Assembly (NCBI RefSeq): GCF_011634835.1
Contig: NZ_SIRP01000001.1
Span: 3,777,748 to 3,841,747 of the forward strand
Source: Isoptericola sp. BMS4
GTDB taxonomy: Bacteria > Actinomycetota > Actinomycetes > Actinomycetales > Cellulomonadaceae
Length of the DNA stretch: 64,000 bases
Reading direction: 5' to 3'
Shown here piece after piece: positions 6,327-54,063 of this stretch. Positions within the stretch are counted from its first letter, which is position 1. Each line of letters starts with the position of its first letter. The notes below the pieces were generated by a model. It saw nothing but the letters and a program-made list of their open reading frames with translations, did no database searches and had not been told where the DNA came from. Made by a program: the position numbers and the translations under genes.

Positions 6327-6923
6327 ATGAGCGAGACCACGACGCCCCCGCCGCTCCCCCGGCGCGCCCTCATCGTCGTCGACGTGCAGCCGACGTTCTG
6401 CGAGGGCGGCGAGCTCGCCGTGGACGGCGGCAACCAGGTGGCCCACGACGTCGCCGGGTACGCGGCGGGCCACCGCGGCCGGTACGCCGTCGTCGTCACG
6501 ACGCAGGACTGGCACATCGACCCGGGCGAGCACTTCAGCTCTCGCCCGGACTTCGTGAACTCGTGGCCCGTGCACGGCGTCGCGGACAGCCCGAACGCCG
6601 CGCTGCACCCGGCGCTCTCCGAGCTCGACCCGGACGTCTCGGTGAAGAAGGGCCAGTACTCGCACGGCTACTCCGGCTTCGACGGCGCGGACGACGCCGG
6701 GCGGTCGCTCGAGCAGGTGCTGCGCGACGCCCACGTCTCCGCCGTCGACGTCGTCGGGCTGGCGGAGTCCCACTGCGTCAAGCACACCGCTCTGGACGCC
6801 GCCGCGAAGGGGTTCGCGACCCGGGTGCTGACCGACCTCACCGCGCCCGTCTCGGAGGAGCAGGGCGAGCAGGCCCGCCACGAGCTGGCCGCGGCCGGGG
6901 TCGAGCTGACGGCGTCCGTGTAG
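6327..6923 (+). CDS. pncA: nicotinamidase (isochorismatase-like hydrolase)
   Basis: A 198-residue cysteine hydrolase converting nicotinamide to nicotinate in NAD salvage. Catalytic triad candidates are Asp in IVVDVQ, Lys in VKKGQYS and Cys in ESHCVKHT. The metal-binding set of true nicotinamidases is present in TQDWHIDPGEHF (Asp, His, His), which argues against a generic isochorismatase. KGQYSHGYSGFDG and GFATRVLTDLTAPV are also typical. A GTG three codons upstream is possible, but the ATG has GGTGGAGG in front. It stands alone, facing away from the frameshifted lipoprotein gene. Confidence 0.92.
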   Translation: MSETTTPPPLPRRALIVVDVQPTFCEGGELAVDGGNQVAHDVAGYAAGHRGRYAVVVTTQDWHIDPGEHFSSRPDFVNSWPVHGVADSPNAALHPALSELDPDVSVKKGQYSHGYSGFDGADDAGRSLEQVLRDAHVSAVDVVGLAESHCVKHTALDAAAKGFATRVLTDLTAPVSEEQGEQARHELAAAGVELTASV

Positions 6924-6945
6924 CCGGTGGCGGCCGAGCCGTCCG

Positions 6946-7842
6946 CTACCGCGCGGCCAGCGCGGCGGCGTACAGGTCGCGCTTGGGCACGCCGGCCGCG
7001 GCAGCCACCTCGGCGACCGCCGCCTTCATGCGCTCGCCGGCCTCCACCCGGGACAGGACCTCGCCCACGAGGTCCTCGACGCTCGGCGTCGTGGTCGGCG
7101 CCCCGCCCACCACGACGCAGATCTCCCCCCGCAGCCCGTCGCCCGCCGCGGCACGCTCCTCGGCCTCCGCGGCGAGGTCGGCCAGGGGGCCGCGCAGCGT
7201 CTCCTCGAACGTCTTGGTGAGCTCGCGGCAGACGGCGGCCGGCCGGTCGCCGCCGAGCACGTCCGCCATCGCGCGCAGCGTGGCCGCGATCCGGTGCGGC
7301 GCCTCGAAGAGGACCATGGTGCGCGGCTCGGCCGCGAGCGCCCCGAGCCACCGCGACCGCTCCCCCGCCTTGCGGGGCACGAACCCCTCGAACGTGAACC
7401 GGTCGGTGGGGAGCCCGGAGAGCGCCAGGGCCGTGAGCACCGCGGACGGGCCGGGGGCCGACGTCACCCGCAGGCCCCGTTCGACCGCGCGCGCCACGAC
7501 CCGGTAGCCCGGGTCGGACACGGCGGGCATCCCCGCGTCGGACACCACGACGACGGTGCCGCCGCCGGCGACGACGTCGAGCAGCTCGTCGGCCCGGGCC
7601 GTCTCGTTGTGCTCGTGGTACGAGGTGACGCGGCCGCCGACGGTGACCCCCAGCCGGGCGGCGAGCGCGTGCAGGCGGCGCGTGTCCTCGGCGGCGACGA
7701 CGTCCGCGCGTGCGAGGAGCCGGAGCAGGCGGGGCGAGGCGTCCTCCGCGTTGCCGATCGGCGTCGCGGCCAGCACGACGGACCCCGCCTCGGGGAGCGG
7801 GGCGGCGTCAGGGGCGGGGGCGTCACGGGGGTCGGCGGTCAT
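6946..7842 (-). CDS. rsmI: 16S rRNA (cytidine(1402)-2'-O)-methyltransferase
   Basis: A 298-residue SAM-dependent methyltransferase of the tetrapyrrole-methylase fold that modifies C1402 in the ribosomal P site. Diagnostic segments: LAATPIGNAEDASPRLLRLL, DVVAAEDTRRL, SYHEHNE, VVVVSDAGMPAVSDPGYRVV and SAPGPSAVLTALALSGLPTD, then RELTKTFEE and a C-terminal HTH-like tail (GVPKRDLYAAAL). It is divergent from the mannosyltransferase gene, the arrangement recalled for mycobacteria (rsmI next to pmt). Confidence 0.96.
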   Translation of the reverse strand: MTADPRDAPAPDAAPLPEAGSVVLAATPIGNAEDASPRLLRLLARADVVAAEDTRRLHALAARLGVTVGGRVTSYHEHNETARADELLDVVAGGGTVVVVSDAGMPAVSDPGYRVVARAVERGLRVTSAPGPSAVLTALALSGLPTDRFTFEGFVPRKAGERSRWLGALAAEPRTMVLFEAPHRIAATLRAMADVLGGDRPAAVCRELTKTFEETLRGPLADLAAEAEERAAAGDGLRGEICVVVGGAPTTTPSVEDLVGEVLSRVEAGERMKAAVAEVAAAAGVPKRDLYAAALAAR

Positions 7843-7867
7843 GGTGACCAGCGTCCCACGGCGCCTC

Positions 7868-7873
7868 TACGAT
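7868..7873 (+). promoter_or_regulatory. -10 box of leaderless pmt promoter
   Basis: TACGAT lies exactly 7 nt before GTG 7881, so the mannosyltransferase mRNA is probably leaderless. This decides the start over the ATG three codons upstream, which overlaps the hexamer. Confidence 0.55.
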
Positions 7874-7880
7874 GACGCGG

Positions 7881-9665
7881 GTGACCGATCCCGACGCAGG
7901 CGCGACCGGAGAACCGACCGCCGACGGCGAGCCCCGCGACGGGGCCCGCGCGGCGAGCACCGGCACGCAGGCGGTCGTCGGCAGGCACGCCGCCGACCCG
8001 GAGCCCCCGCCGGACCCGTGGGCGCGTCCCGAGCCGCCGTTCACCTCCCCGGGGGACGAGCCCGCCGACGAGCCCTCGACGGAGCACCGGCTGACCCGCC
8101 GGCTGCTGGGCCGGCGGCGCCTGCAGCTCGACCTGCGCCGCCGCGACCGGTTCTGGGGCTGGTTCGGCACCCTGGCGGTGACGCTGCTGGCGGCCGTGGC
8201 GCGGCTGTGGCAGCTCGGCCGGCCGCACGCGCTCGTGTTCGACGAGACGTACTACGTCAAGGACGCGTTCACCCTCGGGGAGCTGGGGTACGAGGCGCAG
8301 TGGCCGGACGAGCCGAACGCCGCGTTCGAGGCGGGTGACGTGCACACGTTCCTCGACCAGGCCGCGTACGTCGTGCACCCGCCGGTCGGCAAGTGGATGA
8401 TCTGGCTCGGCATGGAGGCCGGGGGCGGCGCCACCAGCGCCTTCGCGTGGCGGCTCGCCAGCGCGGTCGTGGGGGTCCTCGCCGTGTTCCTGCTGGTGCG
8501 GATCGCCCGGCGACTGTTCTCGTCGTCGCTGGCGGGCGTCGTGGCAGGCCTGCTGCTGGCGGTCGACGGCGAGGCGATCGTGCACTCGCGCACCGCGCTG
8601 CTGGACCAGTTCGTCATGCTGTGGGTGCTCGTCGCGTTCGGCTGCCTCGTCGTCGACAGGGAACGGGCACGACGGCGGCTCGCGGCGCGGGTGGCCGCGA
8701 TCGTGGACGCCGGCGGCTCCGTCGCCCGGTACGGGCCGCGACTCGGCTTCCGCGGGTGGCGCCTCGCGGCCGGGGTGAGCCTCGGCCTGGCGTGCGGGAC
8801 CAAGTGGTCGGGGCTGTGGTTCGTCGCGGTGCTCGGCCTCCTCACCGTGCTGTGGGACCTGACCGCGCGGCGGGCGGTGGGCGTGGGCCGGTGGTGGGAG
8901 GACGGGCTGGTGGTGGACGCCGTGCCCGCCTTCCTCTCGATCGTCCCGACCGCCCTGGTGGTCTACGTGGCGTCGTGGTGGTCGTGGTTCGCCACCCAGG
9001 GGGCGTACCTGCGCGACTGGGCGGCCGCGCACCCCGGCGAAGGGCCCGGCTGGCTGCCCGGCCCCCTGCGCAGCCTGCTCGAGTACCACCGGCAGATGTG
9101 GGACTTCCACACCGGGCTGTCGTCGGACCACCCGTACGCCTCGCACCCGCTGGGCTGGATCGTGCAGTGGCGCCCCACCTCGTTCTTCTGGGAGAAGAAC
9201 GAGCCCGGGACGGCGGGCTGCCCGGCGGACGCGGCGGAGGCCTGCGTGCGCGCGGTGACGTCGCTCGGCAACCCGCTGCTGTGGCTGCTGGCCGCGCTGG
9301 CGATCGTCGTGACGGTGTGGCTCGGGGTCCGGCTGCGCGACTGGCGGGCCATCGCGGTGCTCAGCGGCACCGTGGCCGGCTGGCTGCCGTGGTTCGCCTA
9401 CGCGCCGCCGTTCGGCGAGCGGACCATCTTCACCTTCTACTCGATCGTGTTCACGCCCTGGGTGGTGCTCACCCTCGTGTACCCCATGGTCGTGGCGCTG
9501 GAGCGCACGGAGGGCCGGCCGGGACGACGGCGCGTGGTCGCGGTGATCGCCGTCGTCCTGGCGCTGGTCGTCGCCGTCTCGGCGGTGTTCTACCCGGTGT
9601 GGACGGCGACCGAGGTGCCGTACGGGTACTGGCAGCGGCTGATGCTGCTGCCGTCCTGGGTCTGA
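7881..9665 (+). CDS. pmt: dolichyl/polyprenyl-phosphate-mannose--protein mannosyltransferase
   Basis: A GT39 integral-membrane O-mannosyltransferase of 594 residues that transfers mannose from polyprenyl-phosphomannose to Sec-exported proteins. A polar, Pro-rich cytosolic N-terminus of about 90 residues precedes the first helix. The luminal loop 1 has the catalytic acidic motif FDETYYVKDAF, followed by VHPPVGKW. Later helices contain the family segments GLACGTKWSGLW, YHRQMWDFH, SHPLGWIVQWRP and GNPLLWLLA. Roughly ten membrane helices are seen. The start was chosen from the leaderless -10 spacing. The gene ends in a long hairpin shared with the converging GH20 gene. Confidence 0.95.
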   Translation: MTDPDAGATGEPTADGEPRDGARAASTGTQAVVGRHAADPEPPPDPWARPEPPFTSPGDEPADEPSTEHRLTRRLLGRRRLQLDLRRRDRFWGWFGTLAVTLLAAVARLWQLGRPHALVFDETYYVKDAFTLGELGYEAQWPDEPNAAFEAGDVHTFLDQAAYVVHPPVGKWMIWLGMEAGGGATSAFAWRLASAVVGVLAVFLLVRIARRLFSSSLAGVVAGLLLAVDGEAIVHSRTALLDQFVMLWVLVAFGCLVVDRERARRRLAARVAAIVDAGGSVARYGPRLGFRGWRLAAGVSLGLACGTKWSGLWFVAVLGLLTVLWDLTARRAVGVGRWWEDGLVVDAVPAFLSIVPTALVVYVASWWSWFATQGAYLRDWAAAHPGEGPGWLPGPLRSLLEYHRQMWDFHTGLSSDHPYASHPLGWIVQWRPTSFFWEKNEPGTAGCPADAAEACVRAVTSLGNPLLWLLAALAIVVTVWLGVRLRDWRAIAVLSGTVAGWLPWFAYAPPFGERTIFTFYSIVFTPWVVLTLVYPMVVALERTEGRPGRRRVVAVIAVVLALVVAVSAVFYPVWTATEVPYGYWQRLMLLPSWV

Positions 9666-9674
9666 CCCCAGCGT

Positions 9675-9734
9675 GTTGTGGGCGTGAGTTTGGCGCTATT
9701 CCTCGGAAGATAGCGCCAAACTCACGCCCACAAC
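9675..9734. terminator. long inverted repeat (family A), bidirectional terminator between convergent genes
   Basis: Two perfectly complementary 24-nt arms (left arm starts GTTGTGGGCGTGAGTT) enclose a loop of about 12 nt. There is no T-tract. It lies between the pmt and GH20 stop codons. The arm sequence recurs nearly unchanged at 43288-43347. Confidence 0.75.
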
Positions 9735-9737
9735 GTC

Positions 9738-11180
9738 TCAGTTGTGCCAGTCGACCTGGGGCGTGGGGTGGAACGCCCGGCCGGCGGCGGTCCAGGCGGG
9801 GGCCTGCGCGGCCGTCCGGGTGCGGAACGACTCCCAGTCCTTGCCGTCCGGTGCCGTCCACGCCACCTCGGCGACGGCGCCCAGGCGGGGCAGCAGCATG
9901 GAGAACAGCTCGTCGCGGGTGGTGAGGGTCTCGGTCCAGATCGCGGCGCTCACGCCCTCGACGGCGTCCGCGGGCAGCCCGGCGATCACCGCCGTCGGCT
10001 CCCAGTCGTAGGCGTCGCGCAGCTCCACGTGACCCGCCCAGTCCAGGCCGAGCGGGTGCTCCGGCGTGTACTTCATGTCCAGGTAGGCGTGGTTGCCGGG
10101 CGACATGACGAAGCGCGCGCCGGCGCGGGCGGCGGCGACGAAGCGGTCGACGTCCTCGCCCTTCGGGTCCCAGTACTGCAGCAGGGTGCCGGGCTCGACG
10201 GGGCCGCGGGCGCCCTCCTGCCAGAAGATCGGCGTCTTGCCGTGCTCGCGGACGATCCGCGCGGCGAGCTCGACGAACCGCGCGAACTCCTCGACCTCCA
10301 TGGTGTGCACCTCGTCGCCGCCGACGTGCACCCACGCGCCGTCGGTCATGCGGGCGACGTCGCCGATGACGTCGCGCAGGAACGGCTCGGTGGCGGGGTT
10401 GTCGAACCAGAGCCGGGAGAACCCGACGTCGATGCCGTCGTAGGCGTCGGTGGGCAGGCCGTCGGCGTTCAGCCCGCCGTAGACGTGCGTCGCGGCGTTG
10501 ACGTGTCCGGGCATGTCGAACTCGGGCACGATCGTCACGAAGCGGGCGGCGGCGTACTCCTGCAGCGCGCGGTAGTCGTCCACCGTGAGGAAGCCGGCCG
10601 TGCCGCCGCCCACCTGGTTGTCGGACGCCTTCTCCAGCTCGGGGCGCGACGGGATCTCGAGGCGCCAGCCCTGGTCGTCGGTGAGGTGCAGGTGCAGCAC
10701 GCGCAGCTTGAGCGAGGCCACGAGGTCCACCACGGCGCGGATGTCCTCGGGGCCGAACCAGTGCCGCACCACGTCGAACGACAGGCCCCGCCACCGGTAG
10801 CGCGGCGCGTCGCGCACGACGACGCCGGGCAGCGCGCCGTCGTCGTCGCGGGCGGCGGCGAGCTGGGCCAGGGTGCGCACGGCGTGCGCGAGCCCGACCC
10901 GCTCGGGGGCGGTCGCGGTGATCCCGTCGCCGGCCACCCGCAGCGTGTACCGCTCGGGGTCGTCCGAGCCGACGGGGCCGGCGTCCTCGCCGAGCGCGAG
11001 CGTGAGGTCGACGACGCCCGGGGCGGTGGCGTCGGCGAGCGGCAGGCCGGCGGCGGACAGCGCCTCCGCGGCCAGGTCCGCCAGGGCGTCGTCGGGGGCG
11101 AGGACGCGGAGGCCGGGCACGGGGACGGCCGGCGCGTCGGTCCCCTCGACGTCGGTGGGCCAGGGGATCAGCGGAAGCAA
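9738..11180 (-). CDS. beta-N-acetylhexosaminidase (GH20)
   Basis: A 480-residue glycoside hydrolase acting on terminal GlcNAc/GalNAc residues, for example of chitin oligomers. An N-terminal GH20b domain precedes the TIM barrel. Landmarks: YRWRGLSFDVVRHWF, LHLHLTDDQGWR, VPEFDMPGH and the catalytic Asp-Glu pair in WVHVGGDEVH, then IFWQEG and WTETL. No signal peptide is seen, so it is probably cytosolic and takes imported oligosaccharides. The start is TTG, supported by GGAGA 9 nt upstream. A LacI-type palindrome lies about 40 nt upstream, so catabolic control is likely. Confidence 0.93.
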   Translation of the reverse strand: MLPLIPWPTDVEGTDAPAVPVPGLRVLAPDDALADLAAEALSAAGLPLADATAPGVVDLTLALGEDAGPVGSDDPERYTLRVAGDGITATAPERVGLAHAVRTLAQLAAARDDDGALPGVVVRDAPRYRWRGLSFDVVRHWFGPEDIRAVVDLVASLKLRVLHLHLTDDQGWRLEIPSRPELEKASDNQVGGGTAGFLTVDDYRALQEYAAARFVTIVPEFDMPGHVNAATHVYGGLNADGLPTDAYDGIDVGFSRLWFDNPATEPFLRDVIGDVARMTDGAWVHVGGDEVHTMEVEEFARFVELAARIVREHGKTPIFWQEGARGPVEPGTLLQYWDPKGEDVDRFVAAARAGARFVMSPGNHAYLDMKYTPEHPLGLDWAGHVELRDAYDWEPTAVIAGLPADAVEGVSAAIWTETLTTRDELFSMLLPRLGAVAEVAWTAPDGKDWESFRTRTAAQAPAWTAAGRAFHPTPQVDWHN

Positions 11181-11215
11181 CGGGATCAGTCTCCAGACGG
11201 CTCGTCCTTGGGCGT

Positions 11216-11229
11216 AGGCAAAACGTTAA
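11216..11229 (-). promoter_or_regulatory. LacI-family-type operator upstream of GH20 gene
   Basis: AAAACGTTAA, with a central AACGTT palindrome, is an AT-rich island in a GC-rich intergenic region just upstream of the hexosaminidase gene. The form (A/T-flanked CG centre) is typical of LacI/GalR sites. No regulator gene is adjacent. Confidence 0.5.
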
Positions 11230-11269
11230 TGATCCTGCCGAATCCCGTCAACGGGCCGGGCGACCGCCG

Positions 11270-12937
11270 TCAGGAGGCCGCGACCAGCACCGGCGCCGGG
11301 TCCTCGGGGACCGTCTCGCCGGCCCCCGGGTACGGGGCGGCCAGCCCGGACCACCCGAGGTGCACGCCGTCGGGCACGTCCGCGCTCACGTGGTCCCACA
11401 CCCACTCCCCGGTGGTCGCTCCCCCGGTCCGGTCCGCGGCCAGCACGACCTCCACCTGCGGCACCGGGCGCAGCTCCTCACGCTCCGACACCGACTCGGG
11501 CCGCGTCTGGTGGACGACGAGCATCGCCGGGGGCAGCCCCTCGCCCGCGACGAGGGCGGCGAGGTGGTCGACGACGCCCTGCAGCTCGGCGGCGCTCATC
11601 TCGTGCGACGTGGTGGCCACGCCGTCGCCCAGCCGCTGCTCGGGGTGCACGGCGAGGCCGACCCCGGGCCGCTGCAGCAGCGGGTCCAGGGCCGCCACCT
11701 GCTCGACCAGCGGCTCGGGCCCCGCGACCGGCAGGTCGAGCAGCACGTAGGCACCGGCGTCCTGCGCGGCGGCGACGAGGGGGCGCACGGCGTCCACGTC
11801 GTCGTCGCTCACGCCCGCGCCCGTACCGGTGCCCACGGTGACCTCGAGGGCGGGGACGACGGGTCCGCCCTCCCCGCCGGCGTCGTCGTCCTCGTACGCG
11901 GCGGCGGCGGTGCGCGCCTGCTCGACGGCGGCCTGCGGGTCGTCCCATCGGTCCGCCGCCGTCGTCACGTACCGCCCCGGCAGCAGGTGCTGGGTCCCGG
12001 TGGGCAGCAGGGCGGCACGCTCCGCGGCGGCCACCCGCCAGGCGAACTCCTCGGGCGTGCCGAAGGTGGGCCCGAGGCCCACGACGGCGAGCGCCTGTGC
12101 CTCGTCGAGCGTCCGCACGGCGGCGGGGGCACCGAGGTCGCCGTCCGGGACCTCGACGGCGACGGCGCCCGCGGCGCGCAGCGACGCGATCGCCGCCGTC
12201 TGCCCGGGTCGGGGGTCGACGACGGCGAGCACCTCGCGCAGCAGGCCGGCATCGGCCGTCGCGTCCTCGCGACCGTCCCCGGTCGGCACCGGCGTCCCCG
12301 CCTCCTCGAGGTCGGCGGCCAGGTCGTCCAGGTCCCTGGGGTCCAGCGCCGGGTACCCGTGCTCGCCCTCGACCGTCTCCGGCTCCACGCTCACCACCTG
12401 GACGCCTGCCGCCTCCGCGGCCTGCAGCGCGGCGCCCTCGTCGCTCGTCTCGCCCTGCCCGGACCCAGGGGCCGCACCGTCGTCCGCGCTGCCGTCCGCA
12501 CCGTCGCCGGCCGGGGCGTCGGTGCCCTCGACGACGACCGCGGAACGCACGCCGAGCCGCTCCAGCTCGTCGCCGAGGCCGCCGTCGGCCACGCCGCCGC
12601 GGGCGAGGAGGGCGGGGGCTCTCGCGGCCACCGCGACCGCGGCCAGCCCGGGCCAGGAGCTCTCGTCGGCGGCGTCGGCCAGGACGACCGTCTCGGCCCG
12701 CTCGTAGACGGTCTGGCTCACCGTCAGCGCGAGCTCGGCGGGGTCCGTGGAGTCGAGCAGGACCGTGTGCTCCTCGAGCTCGTGCACCGAGATCGCCGGC
12801 GCCGACGCCGGGTCGTCCTGCACGTCGGGGGCCGGCGGGGACCCGCATCCGGCGAGCGCCGCGACACCGCTCGAGACCAGGAGGACAGGCAGGACGAATC
12901 GGACGTTCCGAAGGGGCACGTCCACATCTTCGCGCAT
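11270..12937 (-). CDS. putative lipoprotein with cell-wall-binding-repeat-2-like N-terminal half, function unknown
   Basis: About 555 residues. The signal [18 protein letters not shown] ends in a lipobox, so it should be lipid-anchored outside the membrane. The N-terminal half ([33 protein letters not shown]) resembles the repeat of CWB2 proteins, which bind cell-wall polymers. The rest ([55 protein letters not shown]) has the look of a TIM-barrel-like fold I cannot name. Low-complexity acidic stretches interrupt the middle. Start choice is open between ATG 12937 and GTG 12919. It lies between GH20 and VanZ genes, all leftward. Confidence 0.7.
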
Positions 12938-43269: not shown

Positions 43270-43287
43270 CCCAGCCACCCGCCCGGT

Positions 43288-43347
43288 GTTGTGGGCGCGA
43301 GTTTGGCGCTATTTCCGACGAAATAGCGCCAAACTCGCGCCCGCAAC
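43288..43347. repeat. long inverted repeat (family A) inside the xylA-xylB operon
   Basis: Arms of 27 nt (left arm starts GTTGTGGGCGCGAGTTTGG) pair with one G-U wobble around a 6-nt loop CCGACG. The arms match those at 9675-9734 at nearly every position. It lies 18 nt after xylA and 29 nt before xylB; it may stabilise the xylA message or lower xylB expression. Confidence 0.8.
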
Positions 43348-47989: not shown

Positions 47990-48913
47990 TCAGCCCTTGA
48001 CCGAGCCGATCAGCGCGCCCTTGACGAAGAAGCGCTGGATGAACGGGTAGACCAGCAGCATCGGGAGCGTCGCCACGAAGATGACGGCCATCTTCACCGA
48101 CTGGGCGGGCGGCACGATGTCCACCGAGCTCTCGTCGGCGTTCATGCCCGAGGCGACGATGACGATCTGGCGCAGCAGCACCTGGATGGGCCACTTCTCC
48201 GAGTCGTTGATGTAGAGGATCGCGTGCTGGTACGTGTTCCAGTAGAAGACCGCGTAGAACAGGCCGATCGTCGCGATCGACGCCAGCGACAGCGGCAGCA
48301 CGATCCGCCAGAACACGCCGAGCTCGGAGCACCCGTCGATGCGGGCCGCCTCCTCGAGGCTGTCGGGGATGCCCTGGAAGAAGCTGCGCATGATGACGAA
48401 GTTGAACGCGTTGACCAGCACCGGGAGGATCAGTGCCCACAGCGAGTCGATGAGCCCCAGCTTCTGCACCACGATGAACGTGGGGATCATGCCGCCGCTG
48501 AACAGCATGGTGAACACGACCATGAAGTTGATGACCCGGCGTCCGCGCAGGTAGCGCTTGGACAGCGCGTACGCCATCAGTGCGGTGACCAGCAGGCTGA
48601 GGAACGTGCCGCCCACCGTGACGACGACGGACACCCCCATCGCCTGGAAGATCGTCGACGTCGACAGGATGTACCGGTAGGCGTCGAGGGTGAAGGTCTG
48701 CGGGATCAGCACGAACGGGCGCGTCGCGAGCTCGCCGGGGGTGGCGAGCGAGCTGCCGAGCACGTTGAGGAACGGGATCAGGCACATCAGCGCGAAGCCC
48801 GTCAGGACGACGACGTTGACCACCTGGAAGACGCGCACCCCGAGCGTGGGCCGGCGGGGCCGGCCCGTGCTGCTCGTGGGTCGGGCGGGCGCTGCCGCGA
48901 CATTCTTGCTCAT
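47990..48913 (-). CDS. carbohydrate ABC transporter permease (LplC/YtcP-type)
   Basis: A 307-residue MalG-like inner-membrane permease with six helices. The coupling EAA loop reads SLEEAARIDGCSELGVFWRI. IVLPLSLASIATIGLFYAVF and the closing FIQRFFVKGALIGSVKG are typical of the YtcP/LplC group that imports oligo-galacturonides or similar. ATG overlaps the upstream small membrane protein stop by 4 bases. No ATPase gene is present, so a shared MsmX-type ATPase is implied. Confidence 0.94.
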   Translation of the reverse strand: MSKNVAAAPARPTSSTGRPRRPTLGVRVFQVVNVVVLTGFALMCLIPFLNVLGSSLATPGELATRPFVLIPQTFTLDAYRYILSTSTIFQAMGVSVVVTVGGTFLSLLVTALMAYALSKRYLRGRRVINFMVVFTMLFSGGMIPTFIVVQKLGLIDSLWALILPVLVNAFNFVIMRSFFQGIPDSLEEAARIDGCSELGVFWRIVLPLSLASIATIGLFYAVFYWNTYQHAILYINDSEKWPIQVLLRQIVIVASGMNADESSVDIVPPAQSVKMAVIFVATLPMLLVYPFIQRFFVKGALIGSVKG

Positions 48914-49425
48914 CTGGAACTCCCGGTCTCGGACTGCTGGTCGGGCTTGCGCAGGGCGAACAGCCCCGCCGTGACGAAGAAGCCGAAGGCGATCGGATAG
49001 AGGAGGAGCTGGCTGCCGACGAGGCAGGCGAGCCCCGCGGCGAGGAACCACCACCCGGTCGTCCTGCGGGCAGGACGCCGGCGGGCGAGGGCGACGCCGG
49101 CGACGGTGAGGCCGAGGACGACCACGACCGTCAGGCCGAACCACGCCGCGAGCGTGCGTGCCGCCTCGTAGGCGGCGTCGACCGGGACGCCCTCGGCCAG
49201 CGCACCCGCCCCGGTGAGCGCCGGGTAGAGCGTGTCGGCGAACGTCGCTGCGTCGACGCCGTTCACCACGAGGGTGAACGCCCCGAGGAGCAGGGTCGTC
49301 AGGCCGGCGGCGACGGCGGCGACCCAGATCTCGGCGGTGCGCCGGATCGTGGGCGTCGCCGGGGGGTCGGGCCACCGCGGCGGCGAGCCGCCGCGGCGGG
49401 GTGCGGGCGTCCCGGTCATGGCCAT
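48910..49425 (-). CDS. small integral membrane protein of unknown function in pectin locus
   Basis: A 171-residue protein with four hydrophobic segments: IWVAAVAAGLTTLLLGAFTL, WFGLTVVVVLGLTVAGVALA, WWFLAAGLACLVGSQLLLYP and IAFGFFVTAGLFAL. No family was recognised. It lies between the GH28 and permease genes with 1-4 bp junctions, so it must be co-transcribed with them; a transporter accessory role is inference. Confidence 0.75.
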   Translation of the reverse strand: MAMTGTPAPRRGGSPPRWPDPPATPTIRRTAEIWVAAVAAGLTTLLLGAFTLVVNGVDAATFADTLYPALTGAGALAEGVPVDAAYEAARTLAAWFGLTVVVVLGLTVAGVALARRRPARRTTGWWFLAAGLACLVGSQLLLYPIAFGFFVTAGLFALRKPDQQSETGSSR

Positions 49426-49426
49426 C

Positions 49427-49466
49427 TCAGCCGTTCACCTCGGCGTCGGCGTCCGTGAACTCCTGC
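49427..49466. repeat. copy 1 of duplicated 40-nt gene end (GH28)
   Basis: The last 13 codons of the GH28 gene, including the stop, match 38 of 40 bases at 50847-50886, the end of the solute-binding-protein gene, in the same orientation and frame. Confidence 0.85.
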
Positions 49467-50773
49467 GTGACCTCGTCGAGCTCGACGTCGCCGGCCACGT
49501 CCGTCAGGCGCAGGGTGGGGCTGTGCTCCGCGCGCAGCTCCGGGCCCTCGGCCCCGACCACGCGGATCCGCGTGAACTCGGAGTCGGCCAGGTACCCGAC
49601 GCGGAAGCCGGCACGGGCCACGGGGTCGACGCCGTCCGCCATGGCGGGCACGCCCGCGACGGCGTCGTCGGCGAACGACACGGCGACGTCGTCGACCGTG
49701 ATCTCGGCGAGCGGCTGCTCCGGCAGGCCGTACAGGTGGGCGGCCGCGGCGTGCACGCCCCGGGCGGTGACGTGCGCGAGGTGGATCCGGCGGAACGCGG
49801 GCGTCCGCTCGTCCACCGGGTGCGGGGCACGGTCGCCGACCCATGGCTCCTTGCCGTCCGGGCCGCAGAAGTAGAAGGGGTTGATGACGAACGGGCACAG
49901 CACCCCGTCCATGATCACGTTGGTGACGCGCACGTCCTCGACGACGCCACCTCGGCCGCGACGGGACTTGAACCGGATCCCGCGGTCGGTGCCGGAGAAC
50001 ACGCACCCGGTGATGACGACGTTGCGGATGCCGCCGCTCATCTCGCTGCCGAGCACCACGCCGCCGTGCCCGTGGACCATCGTGCAGCCGGTGACGGTGA
50101 TGTTCTCGCACGGCACCCGCTCCGCCGTGCGCTCGGTGCCGGCCTTGATCGCGATGCAGTCGTCACCGACGTCGATGTGGCAGTCGCTGATGCGCACGTT
50201 GCGGCACGACTCGGGGTTGATGCCGTCGGTGTTGGGCGAGTCGGCGGGGTTGACGATCCGCACGCCGGAGATGCTCACGTCCTCGCAGAGCAGCGGGTGC
50301 ACCGTCCAGGCCGGGGAGTTCGTCAGGGTGACGTCGCGGACGGTGACCCGGGCGCACTCGTGGATCCCGAGCAGCGTCGGGCGCGGGTGGTCGAGCTCCG
50401 CACGACGCTCACGGAACGTGGTCCACCAGGCCTGGCCGCCGCCGTCGATCGTCCCGAGCCCCGTGATCGCGACGCCCGTCTCGCCGTGGGCGTACAGGCA
50501 CGGCTGGTGGATCACGGACGTCGCGCCCTCCCAGCGGGCGTCCACCGCGGGGTACAGCGCCGGGTCGGGCACGAACTCCAGCCGTGCGCCCGCCTCGAGG
50601 TGCAGCTCGACGCCGCTGCGCAGCCGGAGTGCGCCGGTGCGGTGCCGGCCGGCGGCCACGACGACGCGCCCTCCCCCGGCGTCCGCGGCCGCGTCGATGG
50701 CCGCCTGGAGCGCCGCGGTCTCGAGCCCGTGCGCGTCGGTGGTACCGGGCTGGTCGAGCGGGGTGGTCTGCAC
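49427..50773 (-). CDS. polygalacturonase/exo-galacturonidase (GH28)
   Basis: A 448-residue right-handed beta-helix hydrolase without signal peptide, so probably a cytosolic exo-acting galacturonidase. The four GH28 catalytic motifs are present: SPNTDGIN, VGDDCIAIK, GHGGVVLGSE and DRGIRFKSR. The N-terminus (DAHGLETAALQAAIDAAADA, GGGRVVVAAG) is the usual Pectate_lyase_3 part. The last residues, QEFTDADAEVNG, do not belong to GH28 and nearly copy the C-terminus of the neighbouring solute-binding protein. Confidence 0.93.
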   Translation of the reverse strand: MQTTPLDQPGTTDAHGLETAALQAAIDAAADAGGGRVVVAAGRHRTGALRLRSGVELHLEAGARLEFVPDPALYPAVDARWEGATSVIHQPCLYAHGETGVAITGLGTIDGGGQAWWTTFRERRAELDHPRPTLLGIHECARVTVRDVTLTNSPAWTVHPLLCEDVSISGVRIVNPADSPNTDGINPESCRNVRISDCHIDVGDDCIAIKAGTERTAERVPCENITVTGCTMVHGHGGVVLGSEMSGGIRNVVITGCVFSGTDRGIRFKSRRGRGGVVEDVRVTNVIMDGVLCPFVINPFYFCGPDGKEPWVGDRAPHPVDERTPAFRRIHLAHVTARGVHAAAAHLYGLPEQPLAEITVDDVAVSFADDAVAGVPAMADGVDPVARAGFRVGYLADSEFTRIRVVGAEGPELRAEHSPTLRLTDVAGDVELDEVTQEFTDADAEVNG

Positions 50774-50846
50774 TGGTCGCCCTCTCTGGGTCGGTAGGGG
50801 CGGTGGGGCGCCGGGCGTGCCGGCACCCCACCGGGTCGTGCCTGGG

Positions 50847-50886
50847 TCAGCCGTTCACCTCGGCGTAGGCGTCGGTGAACTCCTGC
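50847..50886. repeat. copy 2 of duplicated 40-nt gene end (solute-binding protein)
   Basis: Encodes the native C-terminus QEFTDAYAEVNG of the solute-binding protein, in the same frame as the copy ending the GH28 gene. Confidence 0.85.
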
Positions 50887-52355
50887 TCGATGTCGTCCAG
50901 GCCCTGGCCGCGCAGGTCCTCGACGACGGCCTCGTAGTCGGCCATCTCGATCTGCCCGGTGAGGTACCGGTTGTAGGCGTCCATGGCCCGGTCCTCGAGG
51001 GTCGACCACTGGCGGTCGAAGGTCTCGGAGGTGAGCGACTGTGTCGGGTTGACGACGGCGTCCGGCTCCTGCTCGGCCATCTTCTCGTTGGCCTCGTCGA
51101 CGTACGGCGTGGAGCTCTTGAAGGTCTTCACCTTCTCCGAGGGGCGCGAGGAGGAGTAGGGCTGGACGTCCTGCTCCCAGGCCGTCTGGTCGGTGATCGT
51201 GACGACGCCCTCGGCGTCCTCCTCGTAATGGGTGCCCTCGATGCCGTTCGTCATCAGCGTGTAGGGCTCCTCGTCGATCAGCTTGTCGATGAAGCCGAGC
51301 ACCTTGCGCACCTCGTCCTCGTTCTTGACCTCGGACTTCGGCAGGGCCAGCCACCCGCCCATGCCGCCACCGGTGTCGGAGATGATGCGGTGCGGCTGTC
51401 CGTCGTAGGTGATGTCGTTGACCAGCGCCCACTTCATGGGGGTCTTCGGGTCGGCGCTCTCGGCGAGGGCCAGGTAGTTCTTGGCCTCGAACAGCCCCGT
51501 GACCACGATGCCGCCCTTGCCCTGGGCGATGGCGTCCTGCTGGTTCGTCTTCTGCACGGTGACGAACTCCTGGTTCACGGCGCCCTGCTCGTAGACGCCG
51601 CGGTACCACTCCATGGCGTCCTTGAACTCGTCCGTCGTGAACGCGGCGTGCACCTGGCCCGAGTCGTCCACGGAGAACTTGTCGCCGGCGCCGAAGTATC
51701 CGGTCAGGGAGCGGAACCCGACGAGGAAGCTCTCCTCGCGGTCGATGAACCCGGTCGTGTCGTCCTTGCCGTTGCCGTCCGGGTCGTCGTTCGTGAAGGC
51801 GACCGCGACCTTCTCCAGGTCCTCGATCGTGTGCGGCACCTCCAGGCCCAGGTTGTCCAGCCAGTCCTGCCGCACCACGACGCCGTAGCGCGTCTTGATC
51901 TTCTGGAACGGGACCCCGTAGAGCGTGCCGTCCAGCTTGGCGGCCTCGATGGTCTGCGGGTCGATCTTCGACAGGTTCGGGAACTCGGAGAGGAACGGCT
52001 CGACGTCCCAGAACTGGCCGGCGCCGAGCGCCTGGCGCACCGTCGTGCTGTCCGTGACGGTGAGGGACACGATGTCGGCGAGCTCGCCGGACGCCAGGGC
52101 GGAGTTGATCTTCTCCTCCTTGGACGCGTCCGGCACCCACTGGATGTCGAACTCCTGGCCGGTGTACTCCTCCAGCGCCGTGTGGATCGGGCCGTCGGCG
52201 TCCGGGGTCACCGGCGTGTGGAGCATCGCCATCCAGGTGATCGGGCCGTCGTCGGCCTCGCCGCCGCCGTCGCCGGACCCACCGCTGCACGCGGTGAGTG
52301 CGAGCGCCGTCACCGCCGCAGCGGCGGCGCCCTTGACGAACGTCTGCTTGCTCAT
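50847..52355 (-). CDS. extracellular solute-binding lipoprotein of carbohydrate ABC transporter (LplA/YtcQ-like)
   Basis: A 502-residue lipoprotein (signal AAAAAVTALALTACSGG). Typical segments: WVPDASKEEKINSALASGEL, KIDPQTIEAAKLDGTLYGVP, YGVVVRQDWLDNLGLEVPHT, NDDPDGNGKDDTTGF and GGMGGWLALPKSE. It would capture pectin-derived oligosaccharides outside the cell and deliver them to the two permeases of this locus. ATG has GAGGAGC upstream. Confidence 0.94.
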   Translation of the reverse strand: MSKQTFVKGAAAAAVTALALTACSGGSGDGGGEADDGPITWMAMLHTPVTPDADGPIHTALEEYTGQEFDIQWVPDASKEEKINSALASGELADIVSLTVTDSTTVRQALGAGQFWDVEPFLSEFPNLSKIDPQTIEAAKLDGTLYGVPFQKIKTRYGVVVRQDWLDNLGLEVPHTIEDLEKVAVAFTNDDPDGNGKDDTTGFIDREESFLVGFRSLTGYFGAGDKFSVDDSGQVHAAFTTDEFKDAMEWYRGVYEQGAVNQEFVTVQKTNQQDAIAQGKGGIVVTGLFEAKNYLALAESADPKTPMKWALVNDITYDGQPHRIISDTGGGMGGWLALPKSEVKNEDEVRKVLGFIDKLIDEEPYTLMTNGIEGTHYEEDAEGVVTITDQTAWEQDVQPYSSSRPSEKVKTFKSSTPYVDEANEKMAEQEPDAVVNPTQSLTSETFDRQWSTLEDRAMDAYNRYLTGQIEMADYEAVVEDLRGQGLDDIEQEFTDAYAEVNG

Positions 52356-52369
52356 GGGTGTAGCTCCTC

Positions 52370-53032
52370 TCATGACGCCTGCTCCGTCACAGGCGCGTTC
52401 GGGTGCACGGCGGAGCGGAGCGGGACCTCCGGGGACTCCACCAACGGACGAAAGACGATGCGGGTGACCAGGGCGACGGCGAACGCGGGCAGCGACGCCC
52501 CGAAGAGCAGGAGCAGCGGCGTCGCGTACTGCCACAGCAGCCACTCGACGAGCCCGACGGCGGTCGCGCCGAGGATGGTCCAGTGCAGCGACCCGAAGCC
52601 GAGCAGCAGCGCTGCGGCGAGCTGCCGCCCCGCCGTCGGGAGGTCGGTGGCCGTCATCACCGGGAACACGTACGCGGCGGCCACGCCGAGCACGACCAGC
52701 GCGACGACGTTGAGCGCCTGCACGATCCAGACCGGGGCGAGGAAGACGTTGGTGACGATGACGGCGCCCGCGCCGAGGAGGACCGCGCCGACGAGCATGG
52801 ACCGGCCGGTCGCCTCGCGGACGGCGGCCACGAACGTGCGGGTGGGCGGCGGGGTCTCCCCGTGGCGCAGCCACCCGTCGAGGTACGTCGCCATGGCGTA
52901 CGACGCCGGGCCGAACCCGAGCACCACCAGGCCGAGCAGCGTCGTCGCGAGCCAGAGCAGGTTCAGGTAGGCGAGCCGGAACAGGCCGCGGCAGATGGCG
53001 TCGATGCGGACGAAGCCCTCGAAGGAGAACAC
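52370..53032 (-). CDS. DUF624/YesL-family membrane protein
   Basis: A 220-residue protein with about five helices. ICRGLFRLAYLNLLWLATTL, FGPASYAMATYLDGWLRHGE and YVFPVMTATDLPTAGRQLAA are the DUF624 hallmarks. YesL-type proteins regularly accompany YtcP/LplB transporters and rhamnogalacturonan genes, but their role is unknown. GTG start lies 12 nt after the upstream permease stop with GAGGA before it. Confidence 0.88.
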   Translation of the reverse strand: MFSFEGFVRIDAICRGLFRLAYLNLLWLATTLLGLVVLGFGPASYAMATYLDGWLRHGETPPPTRTFVAAVREATGRSMLVGAVLLGAGAVIVTNVFLAPVWIVQALNVVALVVLGVAAAYVFPVMTATDLPTAGRQLAAALLLGFGSLHWTILGATAVGLVEWLLWQYATPLLLLFGASLPAFAVALVTRIVFRPLVESPEVPLRSAVHPNAPVTEQAS

Positions 53033-53043
53033 GCCGGCCGTCC

Positions 53044-54063
53044 TCAGTAGACGCCCTCTTCGCCGAACCGCTTGGCGAGCCGGTTCGCGAAGACGACGAG
53101 GACGAGGCCGACGAGGCCCTTGAACAGTCCGACGGCGGCGGCGTAGCTGAGCTGCCCGTTCTCGATGCCCGCCGTGTACACGTAGGTGTCGAAGATGTCG
53201 GCGACCTCGCGGTTCAGGGAGTTCATCACGAGGAACATGTGCTCGAAGCCGAGCTCGAGGAAGTCCCCGATGGCGAGGATGAACATGACGATGATGGTGG
53301 GGCGGATGGCCGGCAGCGTGATGTGCCAGGCCTGCCGCAGCCGGCCCGCGCCGTCGAGCTCGGACGCCTCGTAGAGCTGCATGTCGACCGCCGTCATCGC
53401 GGCGAGGTAGACGATCGTCCCCCAGCCGGCGCCCTTCCAGATCTCCTGGAAGATGTACATCGGCCGCAGCCAGTCCGGGTCGGTGAGGAACGGGATCGGG
53501 TCGAGGCCCCAGGACACGATCAGGTTGTTGATCGAGCCGCCGTCGGTGGTGAGCAGCACGTAGAAGATCGACACGACGATCACCCACGAGAGGAAGTGCG
53601 GCAGGTAGACGACCGACTGGATGCTGCGCTTGAACCACCGGGTCCGGACCTCGTTGAGGAGCAGCGCCAGGACGATCGGGACCGGGAAGGCGAAGACGAG
53701 CATCCCCAGCGAGATCATCAGCGTGTTGCGCAGCAGCACGTAGAACGTGTCCTCGGAGAAGAAGCGCACGAAGTGGTCGAACCCGACCCAGGGGCTGCCG
53801 GTGATGCCGAGGAACGGCAGGTAGTCCTGGAACGCGATCACCAGGCCGCCCATCGGGGCGTACTTGAAGATCAGGAAGTAGACGATCCCGGGGACCGCCA
53901 TCAGGTACAGCGTGCGGTGCCGCCAGAACGTCGAGCGGCGCTTGCGGGGCGCGGGCGGCGCCGTCACCGACGCCGACGCCGGCGTCGGCGTGCGGGGGTC
54001 GGTCGCGGTCGCGGTCGCCGCCGCCGCGCTCACCGCGTCTCCCGCGCTCGTCACTCCCACCAT
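53044..54063 (-). CDS. carbohydrate ABC transporter permease (LplB-type)
   Basis: A 339-residue MalF-like permease. A polar N-terminus precedes the first helix (LYLMAVPGIVYFLIFKYAPM), then GLVIAFQDYLPFLGI, VVYLPHFLSWVIVVSIFYVL and the EAA loop QLYEASELDGAGRLRQAWHI. First gene of the leftward pectin operon. ATG has GAGGAGCAC upstream, and the LacI-type operator lies about 70 nt before the start. Confidence 0.94.
   Translation of the reverse strand: MVGVTSAGDAVSAAAATATATDPRTPTPASASVTAPPAPRKRRSTFWRHRTLYLMAVPGIVYFLIFKYAPMGGLVIAFQDYLPFLGITGSPWVGFDHFVRFFSEDTFYVLLRNTLMISLGMLVFAFPVPIVLALLLNEVRTRWFKRSIQSVVYLPHFLSWVIVVSIFYVLLTTDGGSINNLIVSWGLDPIPFLTDPDWLRPMYIFQEIWKGAGWGTIVYLAAMTAVDMQLYEASELDGAGRLRQAWHITLPAIRPTIIVMFILAIGDFLELGFEHMFLVMNSLNREVADIFDTYVYTAGIENGQLSYAAAVGLFKGLVGLVLVVFANRLAKRFGEEGVY

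Follow-up and report, generated by a model that had tools for sequence, protein, structure and literature searches.

Gene content of the locus and its shared gene ends

The window, a stretch of 64,000 nucleotides from Isoptericola sp. BMS4, carries a transporter locus on its minus strand with the gene order DUF624-SBP1-GH28-TM171-perm1. The features are listed below in this order; QY 916 is the related strain Isoptericola sp. QY 916, and SBP2 is a second solute-binding protein (SBP) gene found there.

52370..53044, minus strand: DUF624 membrane protein gene with putative start, syntenic upstream anchor (Pfam PF04854; 75% identical in QY 916)
50847..52355, minus strand: SBP1, extracellular solute-binding protein, presumably the surviving copy (Pfam PF13416, SBP_bac_8)
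50847..50886, minus strand: native SBP 3' end matching the GH28 tail (38/40 identity)
50774..50846, minus strand: SBP1-GH28 spacer with a strong hairpin, outside the repeat (fold of 50774-50886)
49427..50773, minus strand: GH28 glycoside hydrolase, polygalacturonase-like, 448 codons plus stop (Pfam PF00295, E 9.6e-43)
49467..49487, minus strand: zone with the proposed deletion junction, read by eye from the sequences
49427..49466, minus strand: probable SBP2 3'-end remnant, forming the last 12 residues of GH28 plus stop (37/40 to SBP2 of QY 916)
48910..49425, minus strand: TM171, small membrane protein gene (weak DUF4064 match under the cut-off)
47990..48913, minus strand: perm1, ABC permease, syntenic downstream anchor (Pfam PF00528; 93% identical in QY 916)

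The GH28 protein scores 146.9 bits against PF00295 (curated cut-off 22.9), and its best NCBIfam model is polygalacturonase PglA, with a score under the cut-off of that model. SBP1 scores 43.4 bits against PF13416 (curated cut-off 27). The two proteins thus fall into different Pfam families, in line with the preliminary description of this DNA, which had called the families unrelated. The same description had reported that the two genes agree at 38 of their last 40 bases, in frame and including the stop, and our recount gives the same figure, with one codon register and TGA included. Accordingly, the GH28 protein ends in QEFTDADAEVNG and SBP1 in QEFTDAYAEVNG, each followed by the stop. Similarity is lost past the stop codon. 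Counted back from the stop, identity amounts to 44/50, 48/60, and 59/90, which gives a shared piece of about 40-54 bases; self-BLAST of the window aligns 49427-49480 with 50847-50900 (54 bases at 87%).

All stop-ended 40-mers of the window, 579 on the minus strand and 623 on the other, were compared pairwise. The ends of GH28 and SBP1 form the top pair (38/40), the two runner-up pairs (34 and 33) come from the same repeat read in a shifted or complementary register, and among unrelated pairs the highest agreement, 32/40, is that of a palindromic repeat. A search of the 4.43 Mb genome with the 36-base ending, allowing up to three mismatches, returned exactly two sites, those of GH28 and SBP1. 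Being both the best pair of the window and confined to two sites in the genome, the match is not due to chance. Judged from its sequence, the C-terminus of GH28 is of foreign origin.

The window also holds other repeats. The palindromic element, about 60 bases long with a variable loop, occurs at 9675-9734 and 43286-43347, and its inner stem consists of an exact 14 bases (GAGTTTGGCGCTAT/ATAGCGCCAAACTC). The genome of the strain has seven copies, of which five lie in a region of about 77 kb that surrounds the window, and no copy of the exact 14-base stem was found in the 17 other genus genomes searched; the element resembles a REP- or MITE-like repeat specific to this strain. Near the left end of the window, positions 411-547 and 1812-1948 form a direct repeat of about 138 bases with 72% identity. 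The GC-rich hairpin in the spacer between SBP1 and GH28 (z -3.07, fold of 50774-50886) possibly stabilises the end of the SBP mRNA.

The locus in related genomes

Three collections of related genomes were surveyed. In the genus search, which covered 18 genomes including the strain's own, this GH28 was found in 10, and nine other loci were read. In seven of these nine (L012-L018) the order is SBP-GH28-TM171-perm1, and TM171 follows GH28 without anything in between; L018, among these seven, has one more SBP behind perm1. A further locus (L019) contains GH28 without the operon, and the ninth is that of QY 916. A wider contig scan yielded 90 relatives, of which 80 were retained as loci; one of these (L134) ends before the stop can be read. 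With QY 916 set aside, 79 named loci remained, and 34 of them have an SBP gene directly upstream of GH28 and perm1 downstream; TM171 was recognised between GH28 and perm1 in 32 of the 34. None of these 34 loci has an SBP gene between GH28 and perm1. The family search covered 150 genomes, with GH28 matches in 32; 14 further loci were read, ten with an SBP upstream and perm1 downstream, and none with an SBP between. Two to four tandem SBP genes stand upstream of GH28 in loci of Brachybacterium and Microbacterium (L073, L074, L077, L085, L086, and L087), where SBP genes of this operon have been duplicated repeatedly.

The SBP tail was found on none of the 102 other GH28 records (9 + 79 + 14; several genomes are present twice), in which the best BLOSUM62 score to the tail is 22, compared with 53 in the window. 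A GH28 without the tail is therefore the common state. The preliminary description had held that the same tail on GH28 proteins elsewhere would speak against a capture; among the records read, it was seen in the window strain only. Since 34 of the 79 loci hold GH28 between an SBP gene and the permease without any downstream SBP gene, GH28 looks like an old resident of the operon. This counts against another proposal of that description, that GH28 had been inserted into an SBP gene; an insertion with target duplication was rejected, as no SBP gene stands between GH28 and the permease in 34 of 34 such loci.

The closest genome among the relatives searched is that of Isoptericola sp. QY 916 (G011), assembled in 440 contigs, with the locus (L011) on contig JADHZE010000070.1 of 19,059 bases. 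Here SBP2 sits exactly between GH28 and TM171, giving the order DUF624-SBP1-GH28-SBP2-TM171-perm1 (SBP1 at about 6922-8430, SBP2 at 9855-11363). The start of SBP2 overlaps the GH28 stop (ATGA), and its own stop is followed by one base and then by the TM171 start ATGGCCATGACC. In the window, the GH28 stop is likewise followed by one base and ATGGCCATGACC, so that TM171 begins directly after GH28 as it does after SBP2 in QY 916, and the sequence after the SBP1 stop is different. Protein identity between the two strains is 88% for SBP1, 84% for GH28, 74% for TM171, and 93% for perm1. Among the sampled genomes, the proposed pre-deletion gene order was seen only in QY 916.

Origin of the GH28 tail

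The last 40 bases of the window GH28 match SBP2 of QY 916 at 37 positions, SBP1 of the same strain at 38, and SBP1 of QY 916 at 33. In blastn, bases 1470-1509 of SBP2 match window positions 49466-49427 (92.5%, E 1.7e-10), and this match ends at the last base of SBP2. SBP1 of the window is matched over the whole length of SBP2 (82%), and further matches of SBP2 in the window are weaker (next best E 4e-5, 44 bases). SBP2 was not found elsewhere in the window genome, and relocation to another genomic site was rejected: after SBP1, the next best SBP hit in the entire assembly has 38% identity. Because SBP2 is intact at this spot in QY 916 and absent here, with a tail agreeing at 37/40 and the same flank, a deletion of SBP2 is the most likely origin of the GH28 tail. 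We put the probability at about 0.9 that SBP2 was lost in a deletion of about 1.5 kb, by which its 3' end became fused in frame to GH28. The preliminary description had suggested, as one option, a deletion across a duplicated SBP gene, and the second SBP gene kept intact in QY 916 lends support to it.

In the proposed course of events, the ancestral locus would have had the order DUF624-SBP1-GH28-SBP2-TM171-perm1, with SBP2 present in the common ancestor. The deletion would have run from just before the GH28 stop to 13-18 codons before the end of SBP2 (stop included), taking the own last residues of GH28 and nearly all of SBP2. On QY 916, the distance between the aligned patches puts the lost segment at 1530 bp, which is divisible by three. 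The reading frames would thereby have been joined, and GH28 would now end with the SBP2 tail and stop; its tail would resemble SBP1 because SBP1 and SBP2 are paralogues. In the junction zone, the protein is GH28-like to about GDVE or GDVELDE and SBP-like onward from LDEVTQ or QEF, and the SBP-like stretch may extend to 49480.

The break perhaps occurred at short similarity patches such as GACGA, a patch that two GH28 relatives and several SBP genes carry close to their 3' ends. The word GGACGACA is common to GH28 and SBP1 of QY 916. SBP2 has GGGCGACA at this place, so a short-homology event at GACGA or GGACGACA is only suggestive. No long exact microhomology was seen at the junction when the GH28 end of QY 916 was compared with the SBP2 tail: the longest exact words are four of 7 bases, none of them at the placed junction. 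One of 7 bases, ATCGAGC, stands in the same frame in GH28 and SBP2 of QY 916, some codons before the junction.

The letters of the tail alone do not prove an origin from SBP2, because the sites that vary among the four ends (n=8) are split: -28 joins the remnant with SBP2, -33 and -26 join it with the strain's own SBP1, and the remaining five are uninformative between these two. Position, stop, and flank carry the case for SBP2. The only serious rival is that the SBP1 end was copied onto GH28, by gene conversion or template switch, and that the window lineage never had SBP2 at this place. The slightly higher identity to own SBP1 (38/40 against 37/40), the two sites in common with SBP1 against one with SBP2, and the occurrence of SBP2 at this place in one relative only would all fit such copying. 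However, self-BLAST gave no similarity between GH28 and SBP1 past the 54-base end, so nothing upstream could start a conversion, and the stop, the one-base gap, and the TM171 start, arranged as after SBP2 in QY 916, would have to be a coincidence. We therefore regard the copying as improbable.

An assembly artefact, in which SBP2 exists and was lost during assembly, appears less probable still. In QY 916 the two SBP genes are repeats of similar sequence, and assemblies tend to fail at such repeats. Had they collapsed, however, SBP1 should have been joined to SBP2 and GH28 lost; here GH28 is intact, and the observed junction joins unrelated sequences. In addition, the contig is 4.32 Mb long, and the search of the whole assembly for a second SBP speaks against a lost copy. 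The least credible explanation, with hardly any probability left to it, is the alternative of the preliminary description, a short 3' element in mRNA processing or translation termination that selects for identical ends. The two ends are very alike and their likeness stops at the stop codon, as such an element might demand, but the tail is absent from the 102 other GH28 records and from any third site in the genome, the predicted fold of the tail region is no more stable than that of shuffled sequences (z +1.03), and the strong hairpin after SBP1 lies outside the repeat.

The deletion of SBP2 presupposes that this gene is old enough. As loci L012-L018 have no SBP between GH28 and TM171, SBP2 might conceivably have been gained by QY 916 alone. 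A tree was built from 22 SBP proteins selected among the loci; 7 of its 19 inner branches are weak. In it, SBP1 of the window and SBP1 of QY 916 form a clade (support 100/100) that excludes SBP2, indicating that SBP2 was not copied in QY 916 after the strains split; SBP2 looks older than that split. It pairs, with support 98/95, with the second SBP of Krasilnikoviella flava (L018/L129). This SBP2-type copy stands behind the permease and not between GH28 and TM171, suggesting that SBP2 either moved or was gained twice. A transfer of SBP2 into QY 916 alone would also fit the tree but would leave the window tail unexplained. From one genome and the SBP tree, we infer that SBP2 was present in the common ancestor of the window strain and QY 916.

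The two SBP genes of QY 916, which flank GH28, are identical over two tracts, one of 150 and one of 77 bases; in the other 75-column blocks they agree at 56-71 of 75. At the 77-base tract, SBP1 of the window agrees with either QY 916 copy at only 60-61 of 75, which makes this tract the better sign of conversion; the region of the 150-base tract is also close to SBP1 of the window (72/75 in one block), and part of its identity may thus reflect slow evolution. Gene conversion between SBP1 and SBP2 of QY 916 is thus probable from the alignments, most clearly at the 77-base tract. Such conversion would explain the likeness between the SBP1 end of the window and the SBP2 remnant: recombination between SBP copies, seen as tracts in QY 916 only, may have kept their ends alike.

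The new C-terminus and comparable cases

The structure of GH28 was predicted by AlphaFold2 with 21 sequences. The model is confident and consists mostly of strands (mean pLDDT 90.8), with the last strand ending at residue 432, and residues 435-448 have pLDDT below 50 and are predicted to be disordered; the Pfam Beta_helix match to GH28 is under the cut-off. Because the tail lies beyond the putative right-handed beta-helix and is predicted disordered, the model suggests that it is probably neutral for the enzyme.

The tail also holds GAGGTG, a motif like a ribosome-binding site, ten bases ahead of the TM171 start, with a computed anti-SD pairing of -7.2 kcal/mol, the same in QY 916. As GAGGTG lies inside the SBP2 tail, the deletion would have kept this part of the TM171 start region. 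That the tail was kept by selection for the ribosome-binding site of TM171 and for stop-start coupling, with the loss of the second SBP stabilising the operon, is a speculative and rather doubtful proposal; if true, the loss would have prevented recombination between direct SBP repeats on either side of GH28, by which the enzyme gene would be deleted.

Fusion genes born by deletion have been screened in 2.4 million genomes (Kaul, Rossine, Brinda, Baym, preprint 2026, PMC12803068). In such fusions a deletion joins the start of one ORF to the end of another, both states occur in related genomes, and the screen requires exact 27-mers at both gene ends. We would expect such a screen to miss the present pair, since exact 27-mers are needed and the two genomes are far apart. 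As in those fusions, a GH28 body and an SBP 3' end lie in one frame here, and QY 916 shows the unfused GH28-SBP2-TM171. Unlike them, GH28 remains almost complete, with only 12 to 17 residues of foreign origin added, so the case is better described as the replacement of a C-terminus than as a new gene, and it consists of one genome pair with one genome per species. Recent C-terminal extensions via loss of the stop codon have been described as well (Andreatta et al. 2015, PMC4494051), also in a 2011 study cited in PMC4161906. In both situations the stop moves and the protein gains a new C-terminus; unlike these extensions, the new end of GH28 would have been coding sequence before, still read in its native frame, and would have arrived by deletion and not by readthrough into non-coding sequence. 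In a literature search on Isoptericola with pectin and polygalacturonase, no paper concerned this locus by title and abstract, though one may exist.

The mechanism is thus of a known kind, and the GH28 case adds an example with an unfused relative. With both a before-like and an after state available, it would show cleanly how in nature the deletion of a neighbour can give an enzyme a new in-frame C-terminus; otherwise it is ordinary genome evolution. Where two genes share a short identical end, this can be the scar of a deleted paralogue and is not necessarily a regulatory element or a captured domain.
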